The position numbers and the translations under genes were made by a program. Shown piece after piece: positions 6,504-61,245 of a stretch of 64,000 nucleotides of DNA (position 1 is the stretch's first letter; each line of letters begins with the position of its first letter). This DNA is from Candidatus Endomicrobiellum agilis. Lineage in GTDB: Bacteria; Elusimicrobiota; Endomicrobiia; Endomicrobiales; Endomicrobiaceae. The stretch spans positions 62,001-126,000 of the forward strand of contig JAIXMX010000001.1 in NCBI GenBank assembly GCA_020328155.1, given 5' to 3'. The notes beneath the pieces were generated by a model. The model was not told the origin of the DNA and made no database searches. It was given only the letters and a program-made list of their open reading frames with translations.

Positions 6504-7296
6504 ATTTTTCTCTTGCAGGACTAATCAAGCCGTGTTGTGAAGGATAACGGACGGGGAAGATATCTTTAAATTTTTGTCAGTATAAAACAACTATTGAAAC
6601 AAGTGCATTATTTGTCTTCTTTACATTTTGCAAGTTCATATCGGCAAATTTTTTATTCAAAAAAATTAACAATTGATGTTGCTACGTAACAGTTCAGCGA
6701 TATAATATAAAATCTTTAATTTTTTTATCTATGTTTTTGTTATTGAATTAGTTTTTTTATGACACTTGTGGTTTTCACTATGTCTCGCATAAAGAAAGAA
6801 TAAAGAGTATTTCTCATTTAAAGGGGGGAGAGACTCCTTCTACAGGATAGATATCTCAGAAAGAGAAGTGTATTATTGCGAGGTAGGAGGAAGACTAGTC
6901 AAAGCATAACGCATAACGATTTATTTTTATAATTCAATTACTTTTCATCAAAATTAAAATACGCAGGCTTAAATAAAAACTTTCAAAATCTTTCTGATTG
7001 AAATAATAGGTGTATTTTAATTCTAAAAACGGGAAATATAGTTTAAGTTTAACAGCTTAATTGCACTGAATGTCGTTAGGGAGAGAGTGCCTTTATTATA
7101 ATTATGTACGGTTTAGTCCGTTAAGACTCAAATATCAATGGAATAATGAAAAGAATTTTTCATCAGCGAGACAGATAAAACCGTAAATTTAATCTATTGA
7201 GAAAAATTACTTTTTCTCATAATGTGTAGATTACCTTTTGGTTTATTGTGACTGGATTGCCAGAATTAAAATTAAGTGATGCGTTGTTAATGTTTA
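6504..7296. other. Non-coding or decayed interval between tRNA-Gln and tmRNA
   Basis: No intact gene is visible. On the minus strand a short open stretch ending near 6496 reads FPVRYPSQHGLISPAREK and then stops. It looks like the tail of a decayed protein gene that I cannot identify. Stops are dense in every other frame. Confidence 0.4.
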
Positions 7297-7713
7297 TGGA
7301 GGTGGCGGGAATTGAACCCGCGTCCGAAAATGTTTCAGTATGACCGCTACAGGCTTAGTCCGAAAGATTTATCTCGTTTATAACGCCGTCTCCGGACGTG
7401 ATTACGTTATAAACCAGCGCTGTTTTAATTTCGTTTTAAGCTGACAGCACAAGCCGCTTAAAACTAACCTGCTTTTTGTCGTTTTACCTTATAGCAAGTG
7501 TCTAAAGTAAAGCGAGACTGCGTTAAGCAGCCATTAATGGCATTTGTGCTTTCATCATTGAACTAAACATTGTTGGTTGTTTAGTTATTTCTGAACTAAA
7601 ATGCCTATTTTTCGTTTTGTTGTTTATTTTTCGGTCGATTTTTACGGAGCCATCGACCAACTCCGACCTGCTGTCATTACGTCCATCACTTCCGTCGAAC
7701 CCTGTTCACCCCC
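7297..7713 (-). ncRNA. ssrA: Transfer-messenger RNA (tmRNA)
   Basis: On the minus strand the 5' end GGGGGTGAACAGGGTTCGAC and 3' end GGTTCAATTCCCGCCACCTCCA form the tRNA-like domain, with acceptor GGGGGTG/CACCTCC. CCA is not encoded. A pseudoknot (CGGAG/CTCCG with GGTCGAT/ATCGACC) follows the 5' arm. The likely tag frame ends ATGCCATTAATGGCTGCTTAA, that is PLMAA-stop, and a 9-bp hairpin AACTAAACA/TGTTTAGTT precedes it. The resume codon cannot be fixed by eye: the AAAAATAG position is followed by GCA TTT TAG in one frame, whereas the MAA-stop frame begins differently. RNA ends are estimated from acceptor pairing. Confidence 0.92.
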
Positions 7714-36853: not shown

Positions 36854-37342
36854 TCATTCCTCTTCAGGATTAATCAAATTTGCGTCACCATTTTCCGCAT
36901 CGGTCCAAGTTGCCTCCATAGCAGTAATATTATTTAAAAGTTCTTCAAGTTCCAAAATAAAAGGATTCGCGTCATTATTTTCCGCATTTTCCACAACTGT
37001 GCCAGGAGAAGAATTATCGTCTGAATTTACCAAATTTAAACCTGAAGAATTTGCCGAATTTACAGAAAAATTCACGTCATTATTTTCCGCATTTTCCGCA
37101 ACTGTACCAAGAGAAGAATTATCGTCTGAATTTGCTAAATTTAAACCTGAAGAATTTGCTGAATTTACAGAAAAATTCGCGTCATTATTTTCCGCATTTT
37201 CCGCAACTGTGCCAAGAGAAGAATTATCGTCTGAATTTGCTAAATTTAAACCTGAAGAATTTGCTGAATTTATAACTCTTGCAAACTTTCCACAACTTGC
37301 AATTAAAGTTACTATCAAAAGAAGCGCTACTGTTCTTTTCAT
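36854..37342 (-). CDS. Repeat-containing lipoprotein
   Basis: The 162-residue secreted protein has a signal MKRTVALLLIVTLIASCGKF with lipobox LIAS-C, so it should be lipid-anchored. The mature part contains three near-identical 35-residue units (NSANSSGLNLANSDDNSS, then GTVAENAENNDANFSV), very rich in Asn, Ser and Asp. An acidic tail follows with ELEELLNNITAMEATWTD and ends NPEEE. It has no other domain. Low complexity and extracellular location suggest a surface or host-interaction protein, which is inference. A GGGAT site precedes the ATG. Reading frames on the opposite strand here are shadows of the repeats. Confidence 0.75.
   Translation of the reverse strand: MKRTVALLLIVTLIASCGKFARVINSANSSGLNLANSDDNSSLGTVAENAENNDANFSVNSANSSGLNLANSDDNSSLGTVAENAENNDVNFSVNSANSSGLNLVNSDDNSSPGTVVENAENNDANPFILELEELLNNITAMEATWTDAENGDANLINPEEE
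36965..37279. repeat. Three tandem 105-bp repeats inside the lipoprotein gene
   Basis: Matching points such as GAATTATCGT recur at 37011, 37116 and 37221, exactly 105 bases apart. Copies differ at a few positions; the leftmost is the most diverged. The unit length is a multiple of three, so recombination would change the number of 35-residue units in frame. Confidence 0.93.
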
Positions 37343-37698
37343 TTTTATCCCGATTTTACCCAGACAGAAGAAGTATAAGGTTTTTTATTTATAGCTTTTA
37401 TCTTCACTAAGTTTTGGAAGATTTAAATACACATCGCAAGCGTCGGCAGTCGTAATATTTATCCATAATAAAAAGCTTATTAATCGTACAATCGTTACAC
37501 TTGTGATAAAGCTTCTTACAATAAGCAAAATGCAACTGAATGCCTACAAGCTCTTCAAAAGCCTTAATCAAAATCACTTGAATAAATATCTCTCGAAGAA
37601 GATGAAGAAACTGAAAATGGATTTAATAACTCATCCAGATTATTAACTGATAAATGCGTCAGATATAAACAAGGTTACTTCTGTAAACGAGTCTATGC
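37343..37698. other. Intergenic, nothing recognisable
   Basis: No supported gene, hairpin or repeat is seen. It holds the upstream region of the repeat lipoprotein (minus strand) and short AT-rich frames only. Confidence 0.35.
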
Positions 37699-38135
37699 TC
37701 ATTGTGGTGTTCTTTCTCTTTGTATAGAGCTTATCAGTTTTATTTCTTTGAACTCACATTTCTTTTCAAAAGGAGCGTCCTTATAAAGTTCTCTAAACAG
37801 AGGAGAAGTAATGAAAAAAGTTACAGAGGCAGTCTCTCCTAAAGAAAAGGGTGGATTTAATAGTTTTGTTTCAATTCCTATTGCATGACTCAACCTCGTC
37901 ATCGTTCTTCTTTTTTTTCACGAGTGGAAGACTTATCAGGCAGACGATAGCCGTTTTCAACGTCTCTATTATAGGTTAGATTCTTCTGCCGGAACTTTAT
38001 TGTCAATGATAGAAAGATTAATCTCAAATTCGAGTTCTTTCTTTGGTTTTTTACCAGAGAGTTGCTTTCCTTTTCAATCTCCTCTAACAATTTCTTAGCG
38101 TAATCCAAGTCGGCATTCTCAGGTTGCTTCACCAT
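37699..38135 (-). pseudogene. Frameshifted gene of unknown function
   Basis: Minus-strand pieces in different frames seem to form one broken gene. It starts MVKQPENADLDYAKKLLEEI (38135). One frame over it continues SGKKPKKELEFEINLSIIDN (about 38050-38000). It then has GIETKLLNPPFSLGETASV and VTFFITSPLFREL, ending at 37699. The pieces have sensible protein composition. I cannot name the family. It lies in an accessory-gene graveyard beside the repeat lipoprotein. Confidence 0.4.
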
Positions 38136-38263
38136 GTATTGTCAGAAGTCACAAAAACGCATAACATCATCTCCTGTGCCTTTTCTGTATCTTTCCAATA
38201 AGTAATCTTTCCTCTTAATGCAGGACGGCAAGTATGCGCATTTGCAGATAGTCCTGTAATCAA

Positions 38264-38488
38264 TTACAATATTGTCCTTATATCATATTTGTCCTTAATT
38301 ATGTTCATACAAACACTGTTTAAATTTGAGTTTTTCCTTTCAGCTAGATTCTGCAGCCTTGTCCAAGTGCCGTAATCAATCGCCGCAGTAATACTCTTTT
38401 TTTCACAATCGTTGCTGTCAATTCGGGTAAAGAATTCTGTAAAAAAGCTGTAAAATTTGGCTTCTATTCGCTTTTTCATTCTTGGCAA
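38264..38488 (-). CDS. Small protein resembling a ribbon-helix-helix domain, possibly a remnant
   Basis: A 74-residue frame contains KSITAAIDYGTWTRLQNLAE and continues RKNSNLNSVCMNIIKDKYD. The pattern of a beta strand, a helix with LxxLAE, and a second helix recalls CopG/Arc-type DNA-binding proteins found in plasmid and antitoxin genes. The N-terminal part (MPRMKKRIEAKFYSFF) is not like the family. It has no convincing ribosome-binding site and sits in decayed DNA, so it may be inactive. The rest of 38136-38676 shows nothing else. Confidence 0.3.
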   Translation of the reverse strand: MPRMKKRIEAKFYSFFTEFFTRIDSNDCEKKSITAAIDYGTWTRLQNLAERKNSNLNSVCMNIIKDKYDIRTIL

Positions 38489-38676
38489 TATCGTTGACGT
38501 AATTTAACAATTTTGCATCGCCATAAAGGTTCAACGCTCTTTTGCTCCTTTTATTTTATCATTATCATCCTTGAATTCGAGATGCTCAAATAATATTGCC
38601 TCCGCATTTATACTGGCACACTTGTAGCTCTAAATTGTAAGCGTATATCATTGTCGTGTTTAAAACTGCATGCCTT

Positions 38677-39969
38677 TCAAACTTCTATTTTAATTTTAAC
38701 CGTTTTGTGTTTCACTATAGATTTTGTGGCGTTGATCTGCTTTAAAGCTTTTTCAAGGTCCTCGAGATGTGTTTCGTGCGTAATTATGATAATTCTGCCG
38801 TAATCGGTGCCGTTTATATTGAGTTGTGCAAGACTCCTTGCGATTGAAACTTTAAATTCGGCCAGAATTCCTGAAATTTTTGATAAAACGCCGGCTTTAT
38901 CTATGACGGCAAACCTTAAGTAATAAGGCGACTTGCTTTTGCCTATAGGAAGAATTTTAATTTTTTTCTTACTGTCATAGACTACATCTGGGATAATTCC
39001 TACAGTGTTTGTAATGATGGATTTTGAAAGGTTTATAATGTCGGACACAACTGCGCTTGCCGCAGGCTGTTGTCCCGCTCCTTTGCCGTAGAATAAGACG
39101 TCGCCTGAATCTTTTCCCGTAATCATGATGGCGTTATATTCATTTTCAACTGTTGTGAAGGCGTGATCGTAATTTATAAGGCACGGCTGTACGGACATAT
39201 CTATTCCGTCTTTTGTTTTCTGTGCCGAACCTATAAGTTTCACGTCGTATCCGAAATCCTGTGTTATTAAAATGTCCTCGATATCTAAATCCGCGATACC
39301 TTTGACAAGCGGTATATTTTTGACTTTTATCCAGCTGCCCCACGCAAGAGAAGCAAGTATAGCGAGTTTGTTTGCCGTGTCAATGCCGTCTACGTCAAAA
39401 GATGGATTGGCTTCGGCATAACCGGCTTTTTGAGCGCTTTTTAAGGCTTCTTCATAAGGTACGCAGTGCTTTTTCATTTCGCTTAAAATGAAATTTGTGG
39501 TACCGTTTAAAATACCTTTGATTTCAAATACTTCTTCAGAAGCAAGTCCTTCGCTTAAACCTTGAACCACCGGGATTACGCCGCCGACAGAAGCTTCGTA
39601 ATATATTGATTTCTGATATATTTGTGCTGTTGTGAAAATCTGATCCCAGTATTTTGCAAGTACGGCTTTATTTGCACTGACGACATTTTTGCCAGCTTTT
39701 AAAGATTCTATTATCACTGTCCTTGCAGGCTCGTATCCGCCGATAAGCTCAACAATCAAATCTATTTCGGGATCTTTTATTATGTCTCTGAAGTTTTTAA
39801 CGTAAAGTTCAGGTTTGTCTATAGGTTTTAAATCGCAAATTGATTTTATACATATAGGTTTACCGACTTTTCTTAAAACTATTTTTTTGTTTTCTCCCAA
39901 TATTTTTACTACGCCTTTTCCTACAGTTCCATATCCTATGAGACCTACATTAATATACTTTTTTTTCAT
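38677..39969 (-). CDS. hom: Homoserine dehydrogenase
   Basis: The 430-residue enzyme reduces aspartate semialdehyde to homoserine, the branch point to threonine and methionine. It has the Rossmann motif INVGLIGYGTVGKGVV, then GGYEPAR, VVSANKAVLAKYW, YYEASVGGVIPVVQGL, GILNGTTNFILSEM and AGYAEANPSFDVDGID. A C-terminal ACT domain follows (about 345-430; LRFAVIDKAGVLSKISGILAE). The frame extends to 40035, but the ATG at 39969 begins the conserved N-terminus and has an AAGGA site, so I use it. The homoserine made here could feed metH via homocysteine. Confidence 0.95.
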   Translation of the reverse strand: MKKKYINVGLIGYGTVGKGVVKILGENKKIVLRKVGKPICIKSICDLKPIDKPELYVKNFRDIIKDPEIDLIVELIGGYEPARTVIIESLKAGKNVVSANKAVLAKYWDQIFTTAQIYQKSIYYEASVGGVIPVVQGLSEGLASEEVFEIKGILNGTTNFILSEMKKHCVPYEEALKSAQKAGYAEANPSFDVDGIDTANKLAILASLAWGSWIKVKNIPLVKGIADLDIEDILITQDFGYDVKLIGSAQKTKDGIDMSVQPCLINYDHAFTTVENEYNAIMITGKDSGDVLFYGKGAGQQPAASAVVSDIINLSKSIITNTVGIIPDVVYDSKKKIKILPIGKSKSPYYLRFAVIDKAGVLSKISGILAEFKVSIARSLAQLNINGTDYGRIIIITHETHLEDLEKALKQINATKSIVKHKTVKIKIEV

Positions 39970-55311: not shown

Positions 55312-56490
55312 GTGTATGAGGTGTTTGATTTCCTAATATCTTTAGCAAGTATTCTTTTCTTTGCAAAAGTTTTTGGAGAAATTGCTTTGAGACTTGGACA
55401 AAGCGCTATAATTGGCGAGCTTTTAGCAGGGATTTTTATAGGACCTGGCGTTTTAGGAATTGTGCATGAAACATCTGTTTTGTCAAACATGTCTGAACTT
55501 GGCGTAATAATTCTCCTTTTTGAAGTCGGACTTTCAACCAATATAAAAGAATTGTTAAAAGCAAGCGGATGGGCGATGGCTGTAGCGTTTATTGGTGTAA
55601 TAGTTCCTTACTTTTTAGGATATTTTGTATTTTTACGCTTCGGACTTACAAATATACAGGCAATCTTTGCCGGCGCCGTTCTTACGGCGACTTCTGTAGG
55701 TATTACAATAAGAGTGTTCATGGATTTAAAACATCTCGAAGCTGAAGAGGCAAAGATAGTTCTTGGCGCTGCAGTTATTGACGATGTTATAGGACTTACA
55801 ATGCTTGCCGTTGTTTTGAGACTTGTTACGGGAGGAGCCGTCAGTTTTGGGACTGTTGTACGTATAAGCGGAACCGCAATACTGTTTTTGTCGTTATCTA
55901 CTGCTGTGGGTTTGCTTATAGTACCTACGGTTTTTAATTTTATTTCAAAAATGAAGCAGACTCATATAGTATTTGTTATGGGTGTTGTTTTGTGTTTTGT
56001 TTTATCGGCATTCTCAATTAAAATTGAGCTTGCTCCTATGGTAGGCTCGTTTGTTGCTGGACTTATTCTTTCAACTATAAAACAAAGCGAAGAAATAAAG
56101 AGAGGCATAAAACCGATTTATGCAATTTTTGTGCCTGTATTTTTTGTTGTAATGGGCACTAAAGTAGATATAAGCACATTTAATCCTTTTGTTGCTGCAA
56201 ACAGAGAAATTTTAATTTTAACGGGAGTACTTTTTGTTGTTGCTTTTGTAGGTAAGGCAGTTGCTGGTTTTGCCGTATTAAAAAAAGGAATAAATAAATT
56301 TTTAATAGGCGTTTCAATGGTGCCTCGCGGTGAGGTAGGATTAATATTTTCAGAAATTGGTTTGAAAAATAATGTTTTTGGAACGCGAGATTACAGTGCT
56401 TTAGTTGCAGTTATGATGCTTACGACTTTTATTACTCCGATAATATTAAAGCATCTTATATCAAAACAGAAAAAAAGTAGCTCGATATAA
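55312..56490 (+). CDS. CPA2-family cation:proton antiporter (KefB/NapA-like)
   Basis: The 392-residue protein has about twelve TM helices. Visible motifs are LGQSAIIGELLAGIFIGPGV, LGVIILLFEVGLSTNIKELL, VLTATSVGITIRVFMDL, and VLGAAVIDDVIGLTMLAVVL, where the paired Asp (IDD) are the proton/cation site. SMVPRGEVGLIFSEIG follows. No TrkA-N or regulatory domain follows. The start is GTG with GGAG nearby. It exchanges Na+ or K+ for H+; the ion cannot be told. The end at KQKKSSSI is intact. Confidence 0.93.
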   Translation: MYEVFDFLISLASILFFAKVFGEIALRLGQSAIIGELLAGIFIGPGVLGIVHETSVLSNMSELGVIILLFEVGLSTNIKELLKASGWAMAVAFIGVIVPYFLGYFVFLRFGLTNIQAIFAGAVLTATSVGITIRVFMDLKHLEAEEAKIVLGAAVIDDVIGLTMLAVVLRLVTGGAVSFGTVVRISGTAILFLSLSTAVGLLIVPTVFNFISKMKQTHIVFVMGVVLCFVLSAFSIKIELAPMVGSFVAGLILSTIKQSEEIKRGIKPIYAIFVPVFFVVMGTKVDISTFNPFVAANREILILTGVLFVVAFVGKAVAGFAVLKKGINKFLIGVSMVPRGEVGLIFSEIGLKNNVFGTRDYSALVAVMMLTTFITPIILKHLISKQKKSSSI

Positions 56491-56715
56491 TAGAAATAAT
56501 AGAAATTGTTAAAAAGTAATATCGATACTTCTAAATAATTTCGGCTATTTCAGGCAATACTTGCTATTTCCATCACTGTTTACAGGCAAAAAATTTTGTG
56601 CGACACATCCATCAACACACTCACCGCCAAAAACAACATTACACAGAGTTAGATATACACATATCTGGTAATTTAATGGCTTTAGTCACATTGTGACGTT
56701 ATAGAGTAATTAATA

Positions 56716-56856
56716 TTATTTTGAAAAGCTGGGTGGTTTGTTCCATTCCTTGTAATAGTTCCGCCTGTACAAGCATTCGTCTTGAAGATTGTTTAACGCT
56801 TTTTGAAATGGTTCGATAATTTTCCTGTCTGGACTTCGGACGTTTGATTTTATCAC
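56716..56856 (-). CDS. Short ORF after the lipoprotein/TM gene
   Basis: The 46-codon frame starts at a GTG (56856) that overlaps the end of the upstream frame and reads VIKSNVRSPDRKIIEPFQKA to CLYRRNYYKEWNKPPSFSK. Composition is protein-like, and an AGGAGGTG lies at the very start, overlapping the start codon. It may be the displaced C-terminus of the preceding gene or a small separate gene. I do not recognise it. The 225 bases from 56491 to 56715 show nothing. Confidence 0.35.
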   Translation of the reverse strand: MIKSNVRSPDRKIIEPFQKALNNLQDECLYRRNYYKEWNKPPSFSK

Positions 56857-57292
56857 CTCCTTATAAAAGAAGTGGTTTTCTCAAAATTAAAACAACAAGA
56901 TTTATAACCTTGCCCGCTGATTTGTTCAGAAGTAAGTTTAACAATATTTAAGTTAATAGGCGCAGAATAAATAATTTCATCTTTAAGTTTTACGCACCCA
57001 TGCAATATATAACCAATGGCAGCAAGAGCAACAGAAGCAACAAAATTCAAAGCACAATTTGCAACCCTATTACCTACGTAACCATAGGGAAACACAAATA
57101 CCAAGAAATCCAATAGGAAGGCTCAACGCTGTCGGGCAGAGCTGGAACAGGTTCTGATGTCAGCGGAGGCGTTAGAGCGTCTTCTTTTCCTTCATTCTCA
57201 ACGGCAGTATTCACAGTGTTCCCGCTATTTAGGGACCTGCCGCAACCAGCGATTAAACTTACTGCTGAGAACAAAGATAATACTTTTTTCAT
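56853..57292 (-). pseudogene. Lipoprotein plus transmembrane protein, split by a frameshift
   Basis: Frame one starts at an ATG (57292): MKKVLSLFSAVSLIAGCGRS is a strong lipoprotein signal (lipobox LIAG-C), followed by an acidic Pro-rich linker ending WISWYLCFPMVT (57074). Frame two (57113-56853) overlaps it and contains a membrane segment, ANCALNFVASVALAAIGYIL, then KLKDEIIYSAPINLNIVKL and a basic end. Together they give signal, linker, TM segment and soluble tail, the same layout as at 41040-41470 and 59055-59414. It is either one frameshifted gene or two overlapping genes. Confidence 0.5.
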
Positions 57293-57775
57293 GCTTGTTC
57301 TTAAGTAAATTTTTGTATAATTTTAATGCAATGCTTTTAAAGAGTTGGGCATTGTAGATAACAATCAAAAAGCTGCAAAAGGCGGAGCGGTTTTGTGATA
57401 AGCTGCTCCACTTCCAATTCAACATGCAACTCTAACTCAATTAATTGCATGCAATCTTTCATTGTTCAACGGCTAGGCGGTCTACTGCGCGTCTAAACCT
57501 ACGCCGAAAAGAACCTTCTGAATCAATGTCCGAGATTATCCTTAACCATCGCCAGAAAGTTTGGTTCAAAACATCTGGATTTATTTTATGTGTCTGTATC
57601 TCCAAGCTCTTGTCATTGCCTGCGTCGGCAAATGACCAACTATCCAGTTGAACATAATGTATTTATCTGCCCTGTTCATATTAAGCAAGAAAGTATGCAA
57701 AACGCTGGCATATTTCAACATCTGCATGCAATTCGCATATTGGATTTACCACAAATTACTCTCTTTTGCTAATAT
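57293..57775. other. Decayed interval upstream of the lipoprotein gene
   Basis: Minus-strand reading gives only fragments, for example LHTFLLNMNRADKYIMF near 57700-57640. No gene can be supported. The 60 bases before 57292 should contain its promoter. Confidence 0.35.
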
Positions 57776-58020
57776 CCGATGTTCGCATGCATTCTGTTTG
57801 TAATTGTGTTTTATTTTTCGTATGAATGCGGAATATAATCTCCGTGTCTTTATACAAGTCCGCAAGAGCAAGAATAGTTGCGGTTATACCTCCGACTACT
57901 TTAGTTTTTGTCCCAATCTACCGCTCTGAAAAAGAGGATGTTTTTGACTCTTTCTTGTTATCGTTCGCATGCTCCGAAGAGTTTGTCCCTCCAGATGTTT
58001 TTGCATGTCCATAACTATCT
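57776..58020 (-). pseudogene. Remnant of the accessory transmembrane family
   Basis: One minus-strand frame reads KTSGGTNSSEHANDNKKESK, then one in-frame stop, then IGTKTKVVGGITATILALAD followed by LYKDTEIIFRIHT and a helical tail ending at a TAA (57776). The hydrophobic part and its KVVxGIxxTILA..LYK pattern match the decayed gene at 41310-41365, so both descend from one family. No start is visible. Confidence 0.55.
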
Positions 58021-58400
58021 CTTGCGGTTACTACTTATTCATTTGGCTTCCCATACTGATACATTCGTTCTTTTTGTATTCAAGAATTTGTTCTTCAATC
58101 ACATTCTTGCGTATCGCGTTTAAGGAATGTTTTTGTTTTCCTTTTTCTCTGGTATATTCCCAAACCATTTTTTATTGATTCATCTTTCACTTTTTGGGCT
58201 GCTTGCTCAAATTTTTTCCTGTTGTCTTTCTCTTTAAATTTCTTCCGTTTGCAGTTTTAGTTCTTTGGTTCTCAAGATTTTACACTTCGATTCATGCAGA
58301 GTTAATCCAGATTCTCGAGACACTTGTTTGTATATCTTCCAACTTCTCATCTTTTTCTGTTTTTTTATCTTCCTACTTCGTGCGGATTTGCAAGCTCTAG
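58021..58400 (-). pseudogene. Decayed gene containing copy 2 of the dispersed repeat
   Basis: The minus-strand frame from about 58353 reads MRSWKIYKQVSRESGLTLHE, then SKCKILRTKELKLQTEEI and a stop. A neighbouring frame continues FEQAAQKVKDESIKNGLGIY and KTKTFLKRDTQECD, and a further piece ends KKNECISMGSQMNK. Bases 58202-58314 are the reverse complement of the 16681-16793 copy. The layout (helix, conserved LTLHE segment, charged helices) is that of a small DNA-binding or packaging subunit, but the assignment is only a guess. Confidence 0.5.
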
Positions 58401-59054
58401 CAGTATTCCAAAAATGAAACCACGCACTGCGGAAGCACCCGTATTTTTAAACGCATAATCCAAAGCTAAACTTCCTATCTTAATCACATCCAGTCAGACT
58501 TAATAAAAGAAATATTAAAATGACTACAGAAACACGTTCTTTTTGTTATTCTGCTTCCTGCGCTTTCCACACTCTATAAAATATTTTCTTCTTTCATTTT
58601 ATTCCCTTTACATTGACATCAATCGTTGAAGCTCGTTTTTTATATGCTTCTTTAAAATATATGCATCCTATGTTTTTTTATATTTTATAATACTTATTTT
58701 AAAAGTACAACATCAATATATCAGATTTGCACTCTGATATTTGGTATATATTTGTTTGTTTAGTGTTTTTATTAATATAGCAATACCAATTCAAAAAATC
58801 TTTTATCAAGTCCATAAGTATAAAATCGCTAATATTTTTTTATATAGTAGGAATAAGGAAGATAAGAAAGCGAAAAATCTTTTTAAATCCCGAATAAATT
58901 TAATACAGCGCATAGTTGCTGTGTCAAGGTAAAAACTGACTGTGAGAAATTGTATAAAATTTGCTAAACTTTTATTAAACGAATAAGTATATTAGTACGT
59001 CATATCGAACATGTAAATGTCAGTAATTTTAGTAAACGGCAGCATGGGGATAAT
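58401..59054. other. Non-coding interval
   Basis: No supported gene is visible. A 63-codon plus-strand frame at 58741-58932 (MVYICLFSVFINIAI...) has no ribosome-binding site or family resemblance, and AT bias can explain it. The tail contains GGGGATAATATG leading into the next unit. Confidence 0.35.
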
Positions 59055-59414
59055 ATGAAAAGACTGTTTAAGCTATTATGCATGTGTCTCTTTTCTTATC
59101 GGCGGCATGTCGCCTGCCATATGAGGTTAATAACAGTCTGGCGGAGGTCAATGACAGTCTATTGCAAGTAAAAACGGTAGAAAGAAAGAGTTATGATTTC
59201 AACAATAACTATGGACATCCTACCCTCGTCTCTTTGTTTGTATGTATTCTCTCTGTGCGTTTTTTTATGCGGTTTTATATTCTTCGCCAAAGAATCAATA
59301 GACGCCAAAGAGCAATTCAAAAAAGCCAAAAAATATTACGAAAGAAGAAAAGAGGAGTATGAGGGAAGGATGAATATGAAAGAATCAAAGAAAGATATGA
59401 AGAATGCGTTGTAA
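59055..59414 (+). pseudogene. Frameshifted lipoprotein/TM/coiled-coil gene of the accessory family
   Basis: The ATG at 59055 begins MKRLFKLLCMC. One frame over, from 59078, is MHVSLFLSAACRLPYEVNNS, with a perfect lipobox (LSAA-C), then a coiled-coil-like NSLAEVNDSLLQVKTVERKS. From 59193 a third segment, in the first frame again, has the membrane span SSLCLYVFSLCVFLCGFIFF and the helix AKEQFKKAKKYYERRKEEYE, ending at 59414. Joined, these give signal, linker, TM and coiled coil. Two compensating indels would restore one gene; alternatively these are overlapping genes. Confidence 0.5.
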
Positions 59415-59611
59415 ATATTGAGTATGGTGGGAAAGGCAATGACAATATTCGCGATATTCTTCTTTGTTGTTCCTCCTATTTTTGCTATGAGCCGTCCCTG
59501 TTTTCTATGATTCCGTTGTATATCTCAAAATGTTTAACAGCAGTAGAAATGTTCCTTGCTTCTTATACGTTAGCTAATGATATTTAGACGACATTTAAAA
59601 GGGATAATCAA
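59415..59611. other. Short intergenic region
   Basis: No gene is visible. An AAAAGGGATAATCAA leader before 59612 provides the ribosome-binding site of the next gene. Confidence 0.35.
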
Positions 59612-60088
59612 ATGAAGAAACTGTTTATATCTTTACTATGTTTTATACTGTTTTCGCAGTCGGCATATGGCAGTTTTCTCGGTATTTGCCGTAAGTATGA
59701 AGGACAACACGATGCTTGTATAAATGCCAAGAATCAGTACAGAAACTTGGAGAGTCAGTGCGAAAACGCAAGAAGTCGGTGCGAAAGCTCAAAGAGCCGG
59801 TGCGAGGAACAGCTTAGCGGATATATCGGCAACGACAGTCTTTGGTGTAAAGTTTTTAAATATATGTCGTTTGTTGCAATTATACTTAGTATAGCTATTA
59901 CTCCTTTTGCTATTTATGAAAAGCTGCAAAATAATGCTCTAAGAAAAGACTTAAACAGTGTAAAAAGCGACTTAGGCAGGACAAAAAGCGATTTAAATAG
60001 AGTGACAAGCGACTTAAATAGGGTAAATAGCGAAAATATATCTATGAAAAGCGACTTAGCAAATATGTTTCAAAACGTATTTGATTGA
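59612..60088 (+). CDS. Exported/membrane protein with Cys-heptad and 7-residue coiled-coil repeats
   Basis: The 158-residue protein has a cleavable signal, MKKLFISLLCFILFSQSAYG. Next comes a predicted coiled coil in which Cys recurs every seven residues (SQCENARSRCESSKSRCEEQ). A transmembrane span follows at about 88-108 (YMSFVAIILSIAITPFAIYE). The C-terminal tail is built on a degenerate seven-residue unit (KSDLGRT, KSDLNRV, TSDLNRV, NSENISM, KSDLANM). The frame is intact, unlike its relatives nearby. Topology suggests a periplasmic Cys-rich rod and a cytoplasmic or opposite-side coil. No known family is recognised. A strong terminator follows. Confidence 0.75.
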   Translation: MKKLFISLLCFILFSQSAYGSFLGICRKYEGQHDACINAKNQYRNLESQCENARSRCESSKSRCEEQLSGYIGNDSLWCKVFKYMSFVAIILSIAITPFAIYEKLQNNALRKDLNSVKSDLGRTKSDLNRVTSDLNRVNSENISMKSDLANMFQNVFD

Positions 60089-60128
60089 ACTAATTTGATG
60101 TGAGAAATAATTATTATGTGATTAATGA

Positions 60129-60158
60129 AGAGCTTGTAGAAAACTACAGGCTCTTTTT
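60129..60158 (+). terminator. Rho-independent terminator after the coiled-coil gene
   Basis: An 11-bp stem AGAGCTTGTAG/CTACAGGCTCT with one G-U pair closes a short A-rich loop and runs into T-rich sequence. Confidence 0.9.
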
Positions 60159-60756
60159 CTTTGGTTATGTTGATAAATTTAAGTCGTAAGTGTTTCTATA
60201 TTTGTTTTTTATGTCGGGTTTCTATGGCTAAAATCTATGTTTTTTAACATTTTAAAGAATCAGAATTAATTAAGAGTTAAGCCTTGTTTAGCGCTTAGCT
60301 ATAAATATCCACAGCGGAAACATAAAACCAGAATAGAAACAAATACTTCGATTTTATATAAAGAACGGTGTGATTATTATATATGCTTCTGAAGTTTTAA
60401 TTATTTGCAAGTCTTAAATGTTTGCTGAAAAATAAAATGACGTGAGTGTGTTTCGCTATAAAGATAACAAAAGCAAGTATAAATCCTTTTATTCCGTATA
60501 TAAAAAGTATATAATATCCATACCTATTGGATAAATATTTAATCTACTTTTTTGTCTTTTGACTAAAGAAAAAAATTTATTTACTGGTGTAATATCAATT
60601 CGAACTTTGTCTATCGCTATAAACGAAATAATTGTGATAGGATAAAATGATGGGTTAAATCTATTATGACGGCAAAATGCATCAAAGTACGTTAAGTTAA
60701 ATGATGCAGGAATGCAGTGCTTGTTATTTGTTATAAAATCTCATAGGAGTAAGCAA
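60159..60756. other. Intergenic region upstream of the hydrogenase operon
   Basis: No gene is visible on either strand. It should contain the promoter for hydCBA. Several AT-rich -10-like boxes exist, but none has a clear -35 partner. An ATAGGAG site precedes the hydC ATG. Confidence 0.4.
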
Positions 60757-61245
60757 ATGGAATCAGATTACGGTAAGTTTGAGGCAGTGTGCCGGATTCT
60801 TGAAGAAAATAGTTTTGATAAGTCGAAGCTGATAGCTATTCTTCAGTCGGTTCAGGAAGAATACAGGTATTTGCCGGAAGACATTTTAGATTTTATAGCG
60901 TCATCACTGAAAATTTCTCCCGCAAGAGTTTACGGGGTCGCAACGTTTTTTGCGCATTTTACTTTAAAACCTAAAGGTAAACATATCATAAAAGTTTGCG
61001 ATGGAATAGCCTGCCACGTAAAAAAATCCGATCGTCTTATAGATGCGGTAAAAAATAGGCTTGGGTTAAAAGAACTCGAATACTCTACAAAAGATATGCT
61101 TTTTACAATTGAAACGGTTTCGTGCCTTGGGGCATGTGGTCTTGCCCCTGTTTTTCTTATGGACGAAGAGGTTCACGGACAGATGACTTCCGATAGAGTT
61201 GTTAAACTGATTGATAAAGTAATGAGTCAAGAGGAGGTAAAATAG
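60757..61245 (+). CDS. hydC: NADH-linked hydrogenase/NuoE-type 24-kDa [2Fe-2S] subunit
   Basis: The 162-residue thioredoxin-like ferredoxin subunit begins MESDYGKFEAVCRILEEN (ATG 60757, site ATAGGAG). It contains LQSVQEEYRYLPEDILDFIA, PARVYGVATFFAHFTLKPKG, VCDGIACHVKKSD and TVSCLGACGLAPVFLMDEE. The four Cys hold a [2Fe-2S] cluster. Its neighbours are NuoF-like and hydrogenase genes, so it is HydC/HndA of the soluble trimeric enzyme rather than complex I. The longer frame from 60712 lacks a ribosome-binding site. Confidence 0.93.
   Translation: MESDYGKFEAVCRILEENSFDKSKLIAILQSVQEEYRYLPEDILDFIASSLKISPARVYGVATFFAHFTLKPKGKHIIKVCDGIACHVKKSDRLIDAVKNRLGLKELEYSTKDMLFTIETVSCLGACGLAPVFLMDEEVHGQMTSDRVVKLIDKVMSQEEVK

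Follow-up and report, generated by a model that had tools for sequence, protein, structure and literature searches.

Cor/Llp-type lipoproteins are phage superinfection-exclusion proteins, and i-spanins have an N-terminal anchor and a periplasmic coil. SieA of phage P22 is an inner-membrane exclusion protein with three types that are less than 30% identical, and the two types compared did not differ in target (PMC10883804). In the Erp proteins of the Borrelia cp32 circular elements, mature parts of diverse origin follow a conserved leader, and each cell carries several of them (PMC10016077). The gene analyzed here codes a short protein with a Cys-rich, putatively exported region, and it lies in the window, which is the whole stretch of 64,000 nucleotides that was analyzed.

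The reading frame and its chromosomal setting

A sequence-only reading of the window had proposed an intact gene at 59612-60088, and the 158 codons of this frame were confirmed to be open. The frame, hereafter the query, and its associated features are as follows.

59612-60088, forward strand: intact open reading frame of 158 amino acids, with a leader (residues 1-20), a Cys ectodomain (21-83), a span (about 84-102) and a heptad coil (about 104-153); cleavage and topology are predicted
59599-59604, forward strand: AAGGGA, ribosome-binding-site-like by its sequence, 7 bases 5' of the ATG of the 59612-60088 frame
59751-59805, forward strand: 21-bp tandem repeat of 2.6 copies that codes the Cys heptads (SxCExxx)
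59948-60033, forward strand: 21-bp tandem repeat of 4.1 copies that codes the tail heptads
60127-60156, forward strand: terminator-like hairpin of 13 pairs followed by a T-rich tail, from a hairpin scan

The membrane span and the heptad tail of the earlier reading are both borne out by inspection of the protein, which has a hydrophobic stretch at about residues 84-102 and a repeated (K/T)SDLxR(V/T) unit. The tail coil is strong, with 79% of its a/d positions hydrophobic and no equal in 5000 shuffles. The heptad stretches of the protein are 21-bp tandem repeats in the DNA, and their regular spacing was therefore probably made by copying a 21-bp unit. Across the three Cys units, the S-x-C-E core carries two silent differences (AGT/AGC and GAA/GAG) and one replacement (CAG/CGG). 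Terminator-like sites number 7 in 56400-60800 compared with 2.2 expected, and a promoter scan gave 17 sites against 18.9 expected, which is no excess. A Pfam search with the query returned nothing above the cut-off, and PADLOC gave no match for the query or for the seven element membrane proteins tried. A PDB sequence search yielded seven weak matches to the span or coil (best E = 0.43). The single-sequence AlphaFold model is nearly all helix and is weak (mean pLDDT 66.8, pTM 0.29).

A sodium/hydrogen exchanger gene (PF00999) lies upstream of the query and a NuoE-like [2Fe-2S] gene (PF01257) lies downstream, at a distance from each other of 4,266 bp (4.27 kb). The NuoE-like gene was matched in 25 of the 40 other genus members, and the stretch upstream of it was taken from 14. 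In 11 of these 14 stretches, 175-1,040 bp separate the exchanger from the NuoE-like gene that follows it, and five of the 11 have one small gene in between. This small gene has a leader-like start in the five relatives, and the three tried had no blastp match to the query or to the L017 and L018 proteins described below at E ≤ 10. The three exceptions are G024, where the neighbors are different, and G060 and G020, whose contigs end about 1.1 kb upstream. Near its contig end, G020 has its own 229-residue lipobox frame with no convincing likeness to the query family (best blastp E = 0.07).

The extra DNA around the query holds decayed pieces of a plasmid-like element, which were located as follows.

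59055-59414, forward strand: putative broken sister-type gene with leader, lipobox-like LSAAC, hydrophobic span and coil in different frames, from a reading of the sequence only, with no profile or alignment support
58200-58350, no strand assigned: element-derived segment with about 70% identity to L017:7281-7435, L018:1480-1633 and L153:1013-1146
58049-58165, reverse strand: remnant of the ribbon-helix-helix protein of the element (tblastn E = 4e-5 and 5e-5)
56885-57303, reverse strand: decayed type II lipoprotein gene or genes of the element, with 57074-57292 still open

The element genes that adjoin the query are broken and the query frame is open, which agrees with the earlier description of decayed neighbors. 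Selection, which the earlier reading drew from this survival, is only one possible cause, and the frame may just be of more recent origin than the genes around it. A second decayed element is present at 36854-38684 of the window and consists of a lipoprotein with long repeats (36854-37342), a ribbon-helix-helix gene (38264-38479) and the end of an integrase (38598-38684).

Probable relatives on plasmid-like elements

Contig C15 of the same genome (L017) has about 100 bases repeated at both ends, and this terminal overlap suggests that it is a circular molecule of about 12,984 bp. The genes of L017 include those for a primase of the Prim-Pol/zinc-ribbon kind, a helicase resembling DnaB, an integrase of phage type and a ribbon-helix-helix protein, and short exported proteins are coded in two arrays. 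Stretches related to L017 are found on contigs C10 (beside pgk), C23 (beside hisS), C11 and C2. The query matches the proteins coded by L017:5784-6164 (E = 5e-5) and L018:5693-6064 (E = 3e-4) in searches against the window, and a repeat search gave E = 9e-5 and 1e-3. The match spans only residues 1-54 or 1-71, is clearest in the leader and has an identity of 19-24% (19-20% overall in one comparison). The query leader is related, but not identical, to the MKRNIVILLCLVFFTQSAFA-type leader of the element-borne Cys-coil family, which has copies on L017, L018, L019 and L056 (E = 5e-5). The query, L017 and L018 proteins have in common a related leader, Cys residues in one register and a span after the Cys region. 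The query has a codon score of 0.096. Each of the 33 chromosomal training genes from the window scores higher (0.185 or more), and the scores of nine intact element genes span -0.04 to 0.20, a range that includes the query. The N-terminal match, the Cys register, the element pieces in the same extra DNA, the 4,266-bp gap and the codon score support, but do not prove, the view that the query was stranded in the chromosome and belongs to a family of short, exported membrane proteins with a single pass, which occur in arrays on small plasmid-like integrating elements of this bacterium.

No match to the query at E ≤ 0.01 was found in 58 other genomes, a set that left out six of the 40 other genus members, and five genomes gave partial matches at E = 0.045-0.084. 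Viral contigs contained no relative of the query, the L018 Cys-coil protein or the L018 DnaB, and plasmid records contained none for the Cys-coil protein and four distant DnaB proteins. The element-type DnaB (at least 46% identity) occurs in two of the 40 other genus members (G031 and G034), and a plasmid Rep occurs in five of the 40. A search with the element integrase matched 33 loci in many phyla, and the sole Endomicrobiellum locus among them, L124, has no lipobox frame. No description of the element-borne Cys-coil family was found in the open-licence papers, to which this search was limited.

Lipobox frames number 5 in L017, 5 in L018, 9 in L019 and 4 in L056, whereas the 64-kb window has 2, each within a remnant. 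Eight chromosomal stretches taken from relatives (57.8 kb) have none, and the mean over five mononucleotide shuffles of each source was between 0 and 0.2. Among small contigs of G064, L097 has 2 such frames, L098 has 4 and L099 has 2. L021, from the same genome as the query, and L053, from G031, have one each, and L052, L054, L101 and L124 have none; the counts for L052, L053 and L054 indicate that not all elements carry such proteins. Among open reading frames of at least 80 residues, leader-like starts were found in 36 of 111 in six element-bearing stretches of the query's genome (flanking genes counted) and in 11 of 17 in the three G064 contigs, compared with 6 of 53 in the window and 2 of 61 in eight control stretches.

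Several other features of these elements were recorded. The G064 contigs L097, L098 and L099 (5.0-5.8 kb) are replicon-like and share backbone pieces at 82-96% identity. The Rep search matched L099 alone among the three, and 10 of the 13 open reading frames of at least 80 residues in L097 and L098 have a leader-like start. On contig C1 of G064, dnaA is split inside the ATPase domain (L154:1-723 and 6926-7339; Pfam positions 2-97 and 99-161) by a plasmid-like insert of about 6.2 kb that has two Rep-like and two lipobox frames. Contig C23 of G000 has a phrog_942 replication initiation protein split between two frames (L152:8737-9752; E = 9e-23 and 3e-11), which we take to be of the Microviridae type, adjoining a plasmid Rep and lipoproteins. 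Lipoproteins of two types alternate in L153 in the order A-D-A-D-A. The type D lipoproteins (L153:2244-3785; L019:9114-9461) have a run of Cys directly after the span, for example CKCGCCCCCKKG, which resembles a patch for binding lipid or metal. Near the lipoprotein array of L153, a 145-residue protein (L153:5046-5483) matches the start of the PADLOC candidate defense family PDC-S06 (E = 8e-38, positions 1-146 of 727). Lipobox proteins of G031 with a different common leader (..LSSC..) are coded by L053:3192-3869, L161:2381-3004 and L159:5113-5781, on small contigs also matched by the DnaB or Rep searches, and a span was called in neither the L161 nor the L159 proteins.

Cysteine register and sequence divergence

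The query has Cys at residues 10 (in the leader), 26, 36, 50, 57, 64 and 79. The regular Cys spacing that had drawn attention to this protein is real, with residues 50, 57 and 64 exactly seven apart and residue 36 in the same register. The query alone is mildly unusual, with 6 of 15 Cys pairs at multiples of seven (p = 0.022), and the register is considered more than chance because it recurs in two relatives. The Cys residues of L017:5784-6164 (29, 36, 43 and 50; p = 0.007) and L018:5693-6064 (26, 40 and 47; p = 0.014) each lie in one heptad register. The trait thus extends to two of the four relatives tested and is not significant in the L056 and L098 candidates (p = 0.60 and p = 0.34). The five proteins pooled have 17 Cys pairs at multiples of seven compared with 4.7 expected, a result seen in 1 of 50,000 simulations, although this p value is too small because the members are related to each other. 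An L019 sister has stops that break the frame, and its translation has Cys at 26, 29 and 36. The coiled coil that had been predicted over the Cys region stands in part: the region is heptadic if Cys is counted as a core residue, but otherwise p = 0.11, and the prediction depends on the Cys residues themselves.

Inter-chain disulfides had also been suggested for this region and are not favored by the gene content of the organism. Searches for DsbA, DsbB and VKOR found no match in the query's own genome, which is 99.91% complete, and found matches in 8, 6 and 3 of 14 control genomes, respectively. The query Cys are thus unlikely to be joined by the standard machinery. A rod in which a ladder of disulfides links the chains through Cys of a single heptad position is compatible with the other explanations considered here. 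The register common to the query, L017 and L018 and the location of all query Cys before the span argue for such a rod, and with the result of the enzyme searches set against them we regard it as quite improbable.

Rates of change were compared between gene copies. The whole-gene pN/pS ratio of the L017/L018 Cys-coil pair is 1.95, compared with 0.78-1.33 for a random-replacement null (Fisher p = 0.056), and it is the only one of ten gene pairs above the null; the nine other element pairs are not. Whole-gene ratios of 0.38 for DnaB, 0.11 for the integrase and 0.42 for the ribbon-helix-helix protein show constraint. The L017/L018 leader has no nonsynonymous change in 20 codons (pN/pS 0.00/0.08), and codons 51-75 are almost unchanged. 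Change is located in the Cys ectodomain (pN/pS 0.42/0.09), with 27.8 nonsynonymous differences in 66.7 sites and 1.2 synonymous differences in 14.3 sites; the Fisher p of 0.011 is from one of 15 regional tests, and one pair bears the weight. Two L019 sister pairs have the same lean in the ectodomain (0.37 versus 0.16 and 0.36 versus 0.21), which is not significant (p = 0.155 and 0.233), and are also variable in codons 51-75. The L017/L056 pair has no nonsynonymous excess (0.64 versus 0.67). The L017/L018 excess hints at an antagonistic partner, on thin statistics. Among the other lipoprotein families, all ten type II pairs have dN above dS outside the leader. Three of these pairs were compared with the random-replacement null, as were one pair of type D and two of type B; none exceeded it, and no selection is claimed for these families. 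Type A lipoproteins mostly have dS above dN.

Proposed role and comparison with described systems

The preferred explanation joins the element-family identity of the stranded gene to a working form and an exclusion-like job, and as a whole it is assigned a probability of about 0.55. The leader would be cleaved, and the Cys ectodomain would be a periplasmic helical rod that has its Cys on one side. The protein would cross the inner membrane once, and the cytoplasmic heptad tail would form parallel oligomers. Like an exclusion protein, the ectodomain would recognize something that crosses or touches the envelope, and its most likely target is the machinery with which rival phages or elements inject or take up DNA. 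Rival entry is put forward as the likeliest target because the genes are on mobile elements, the exposed part varies with a fixed leader and SieA acts at the inner membrane. Taken by itself, this recognition job is a tentative proposal that we consider less likely than not, and the query copy may be losing it. The topology is favored by Lys/Arg counts after versus before the span in 27 single-span relatives, where the C-side has more in 15, an equal number in 8 and fewer in 4, an excess that favors the C-inside arrangement. The query was not counted, and 7 of 34 single-span frames were dropped because they lacked a lipobox call or the family leader; two of the seven (L097) have the opposite lean. 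Endomicrobium symbionts have CRISPR-Cas and restriction-modification systems and may be exposed to phages and plasmids, according to PMC8809381, and CRISPR-Cas and possible phage exposure are likewise reported in PMC5478533. Such exposure would fit recognition of rivals.

The same locus could also be a relic in which the element inserted, its genes are decaying and the query frame, surviving by chance or as the youngest piece, does nothing now. The recognizable neighboring element genes are broken, the codon score is below that of every chromosomal training gene, and a frame of at least 158 codons arose in 6 of 400 Markov simulations of 56491-60700 run without selection. No copy is near enough to gauge constraint on the query: synonymous sites in the query/L017 comparison are near saturation (0.75 in the leader and 0.88 in the ectodomain), so the query's own constraint is not readable from this pair. 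The start region, frame, repeats and terminator-like hairpin are nevertheless all in place, and intact element genes have codon scores as low, which leaves an inert relic a possible but doubtful account. A different role for a constant leader with a variable exposed part, spread by elements like Borrelia Erp, would be action on a surface seen by a protist host. Constant leaders with divergent mature parts do occur in arrays on the elements, one of them circular, nonsynonymous over synonymous change is elevated in the ectodomain of one pair (L017/L018), and the same design is described for Erp (PMC10016077). The span after the ectodomain, however, points to the inner membrane and not the cell surface, and the life of this organism in a host is itself presumed; we consider a role in symbiont-host interaction unlikely.

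A lysis protein of the i-spanin (Rz) type is disfavored and is given hardly any credence. The best PHROG match of the query is phrog_739, an Rz-like spanin (E = 0.0039), and the protein coded by L098:4016-4396 also matches it (E = 0.0005). These matches, however, fall on the span and coil (query residues 83-147) and on the coil (L098 protein residues 26-90), where unrelated coils match too: a minor head protein comes next among the PHROG matches of the query (E = 0.0074). With leader, ectodomain, span and coil in this order, the coil would be cytoplasmic, the reverse of an i-spanin, and no holin, endolysin or virion gene was found among the six L017 open reading frames scanned against PHROGs.

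Accessory genes are expected to disappear from the shrinking genomes of long-term symbionts. If this genome is that of such a symbiont, it departs from the expectation, with many envelope proteins coded on elements that combine constant leaders and divergent mature parts. A general account, which goes further than exclusion by the query family and which we think has a small chance of being right, is that small plasmid-like elements of a reduced-genome symbiont wage an arms race at the envelope. Arrays of tiny exported membrane proteins would keep a constant leader and span while the ectodomain diversifies under positive selection to recognize rivals, the Cys rod would work without the usual disulfide enzymes, and single members would be stranded in the chromosome after element decay and may be taken over by the host cell. 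If an antagonist shapes the ectodomains, the arrays would offer a way to test what still attacks or gets into a bacterium that is seemingly sealed in a host cell. A rod with Cys at every seventh residue is also puzzling in an organism that has no known disulfide catalysts, and this is open to direct test.

Among the described systems, Rz-like spanins resemble the query in small size, in the span and coil and in the weak phrog_739 match, and differ in the reversed topology predicted for the query and in the lack of a lysis gene among the six L017 frames scanned. The likeness to phage superinfection-exclusion proteins such as P22 SieA is that both are small envelope proteins on mobile elements. 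PHROG and PADLOC profile searches matched the query to no known exclusion family, and two other element lipoproteins match phrog_1119 (Cor) weakly (E = 0.049 and 0.024). The two SieA types compared show no difference in target, and an arms race over specificity would be expected to produce one. The query leader, which ends in ..SQSAYG-S, lacks a Cys at its cleavage site and has no lipobox, so the query is not an Erp. Erp proteins are outer-surface lipoproteins and the query has a span of the inner-membrane type; the cp32 elements are prophages and no virion gene is among the six L017 frames scanned. Membership is claimed neither in Erp nor in SieA. Nearest in design are the Borrelia cp32 Erp (OspE/F-related) proteins, which the element proteins as a group resemble in their constant leader, divergent mature part and circular element, a likeness of design and not of homology.
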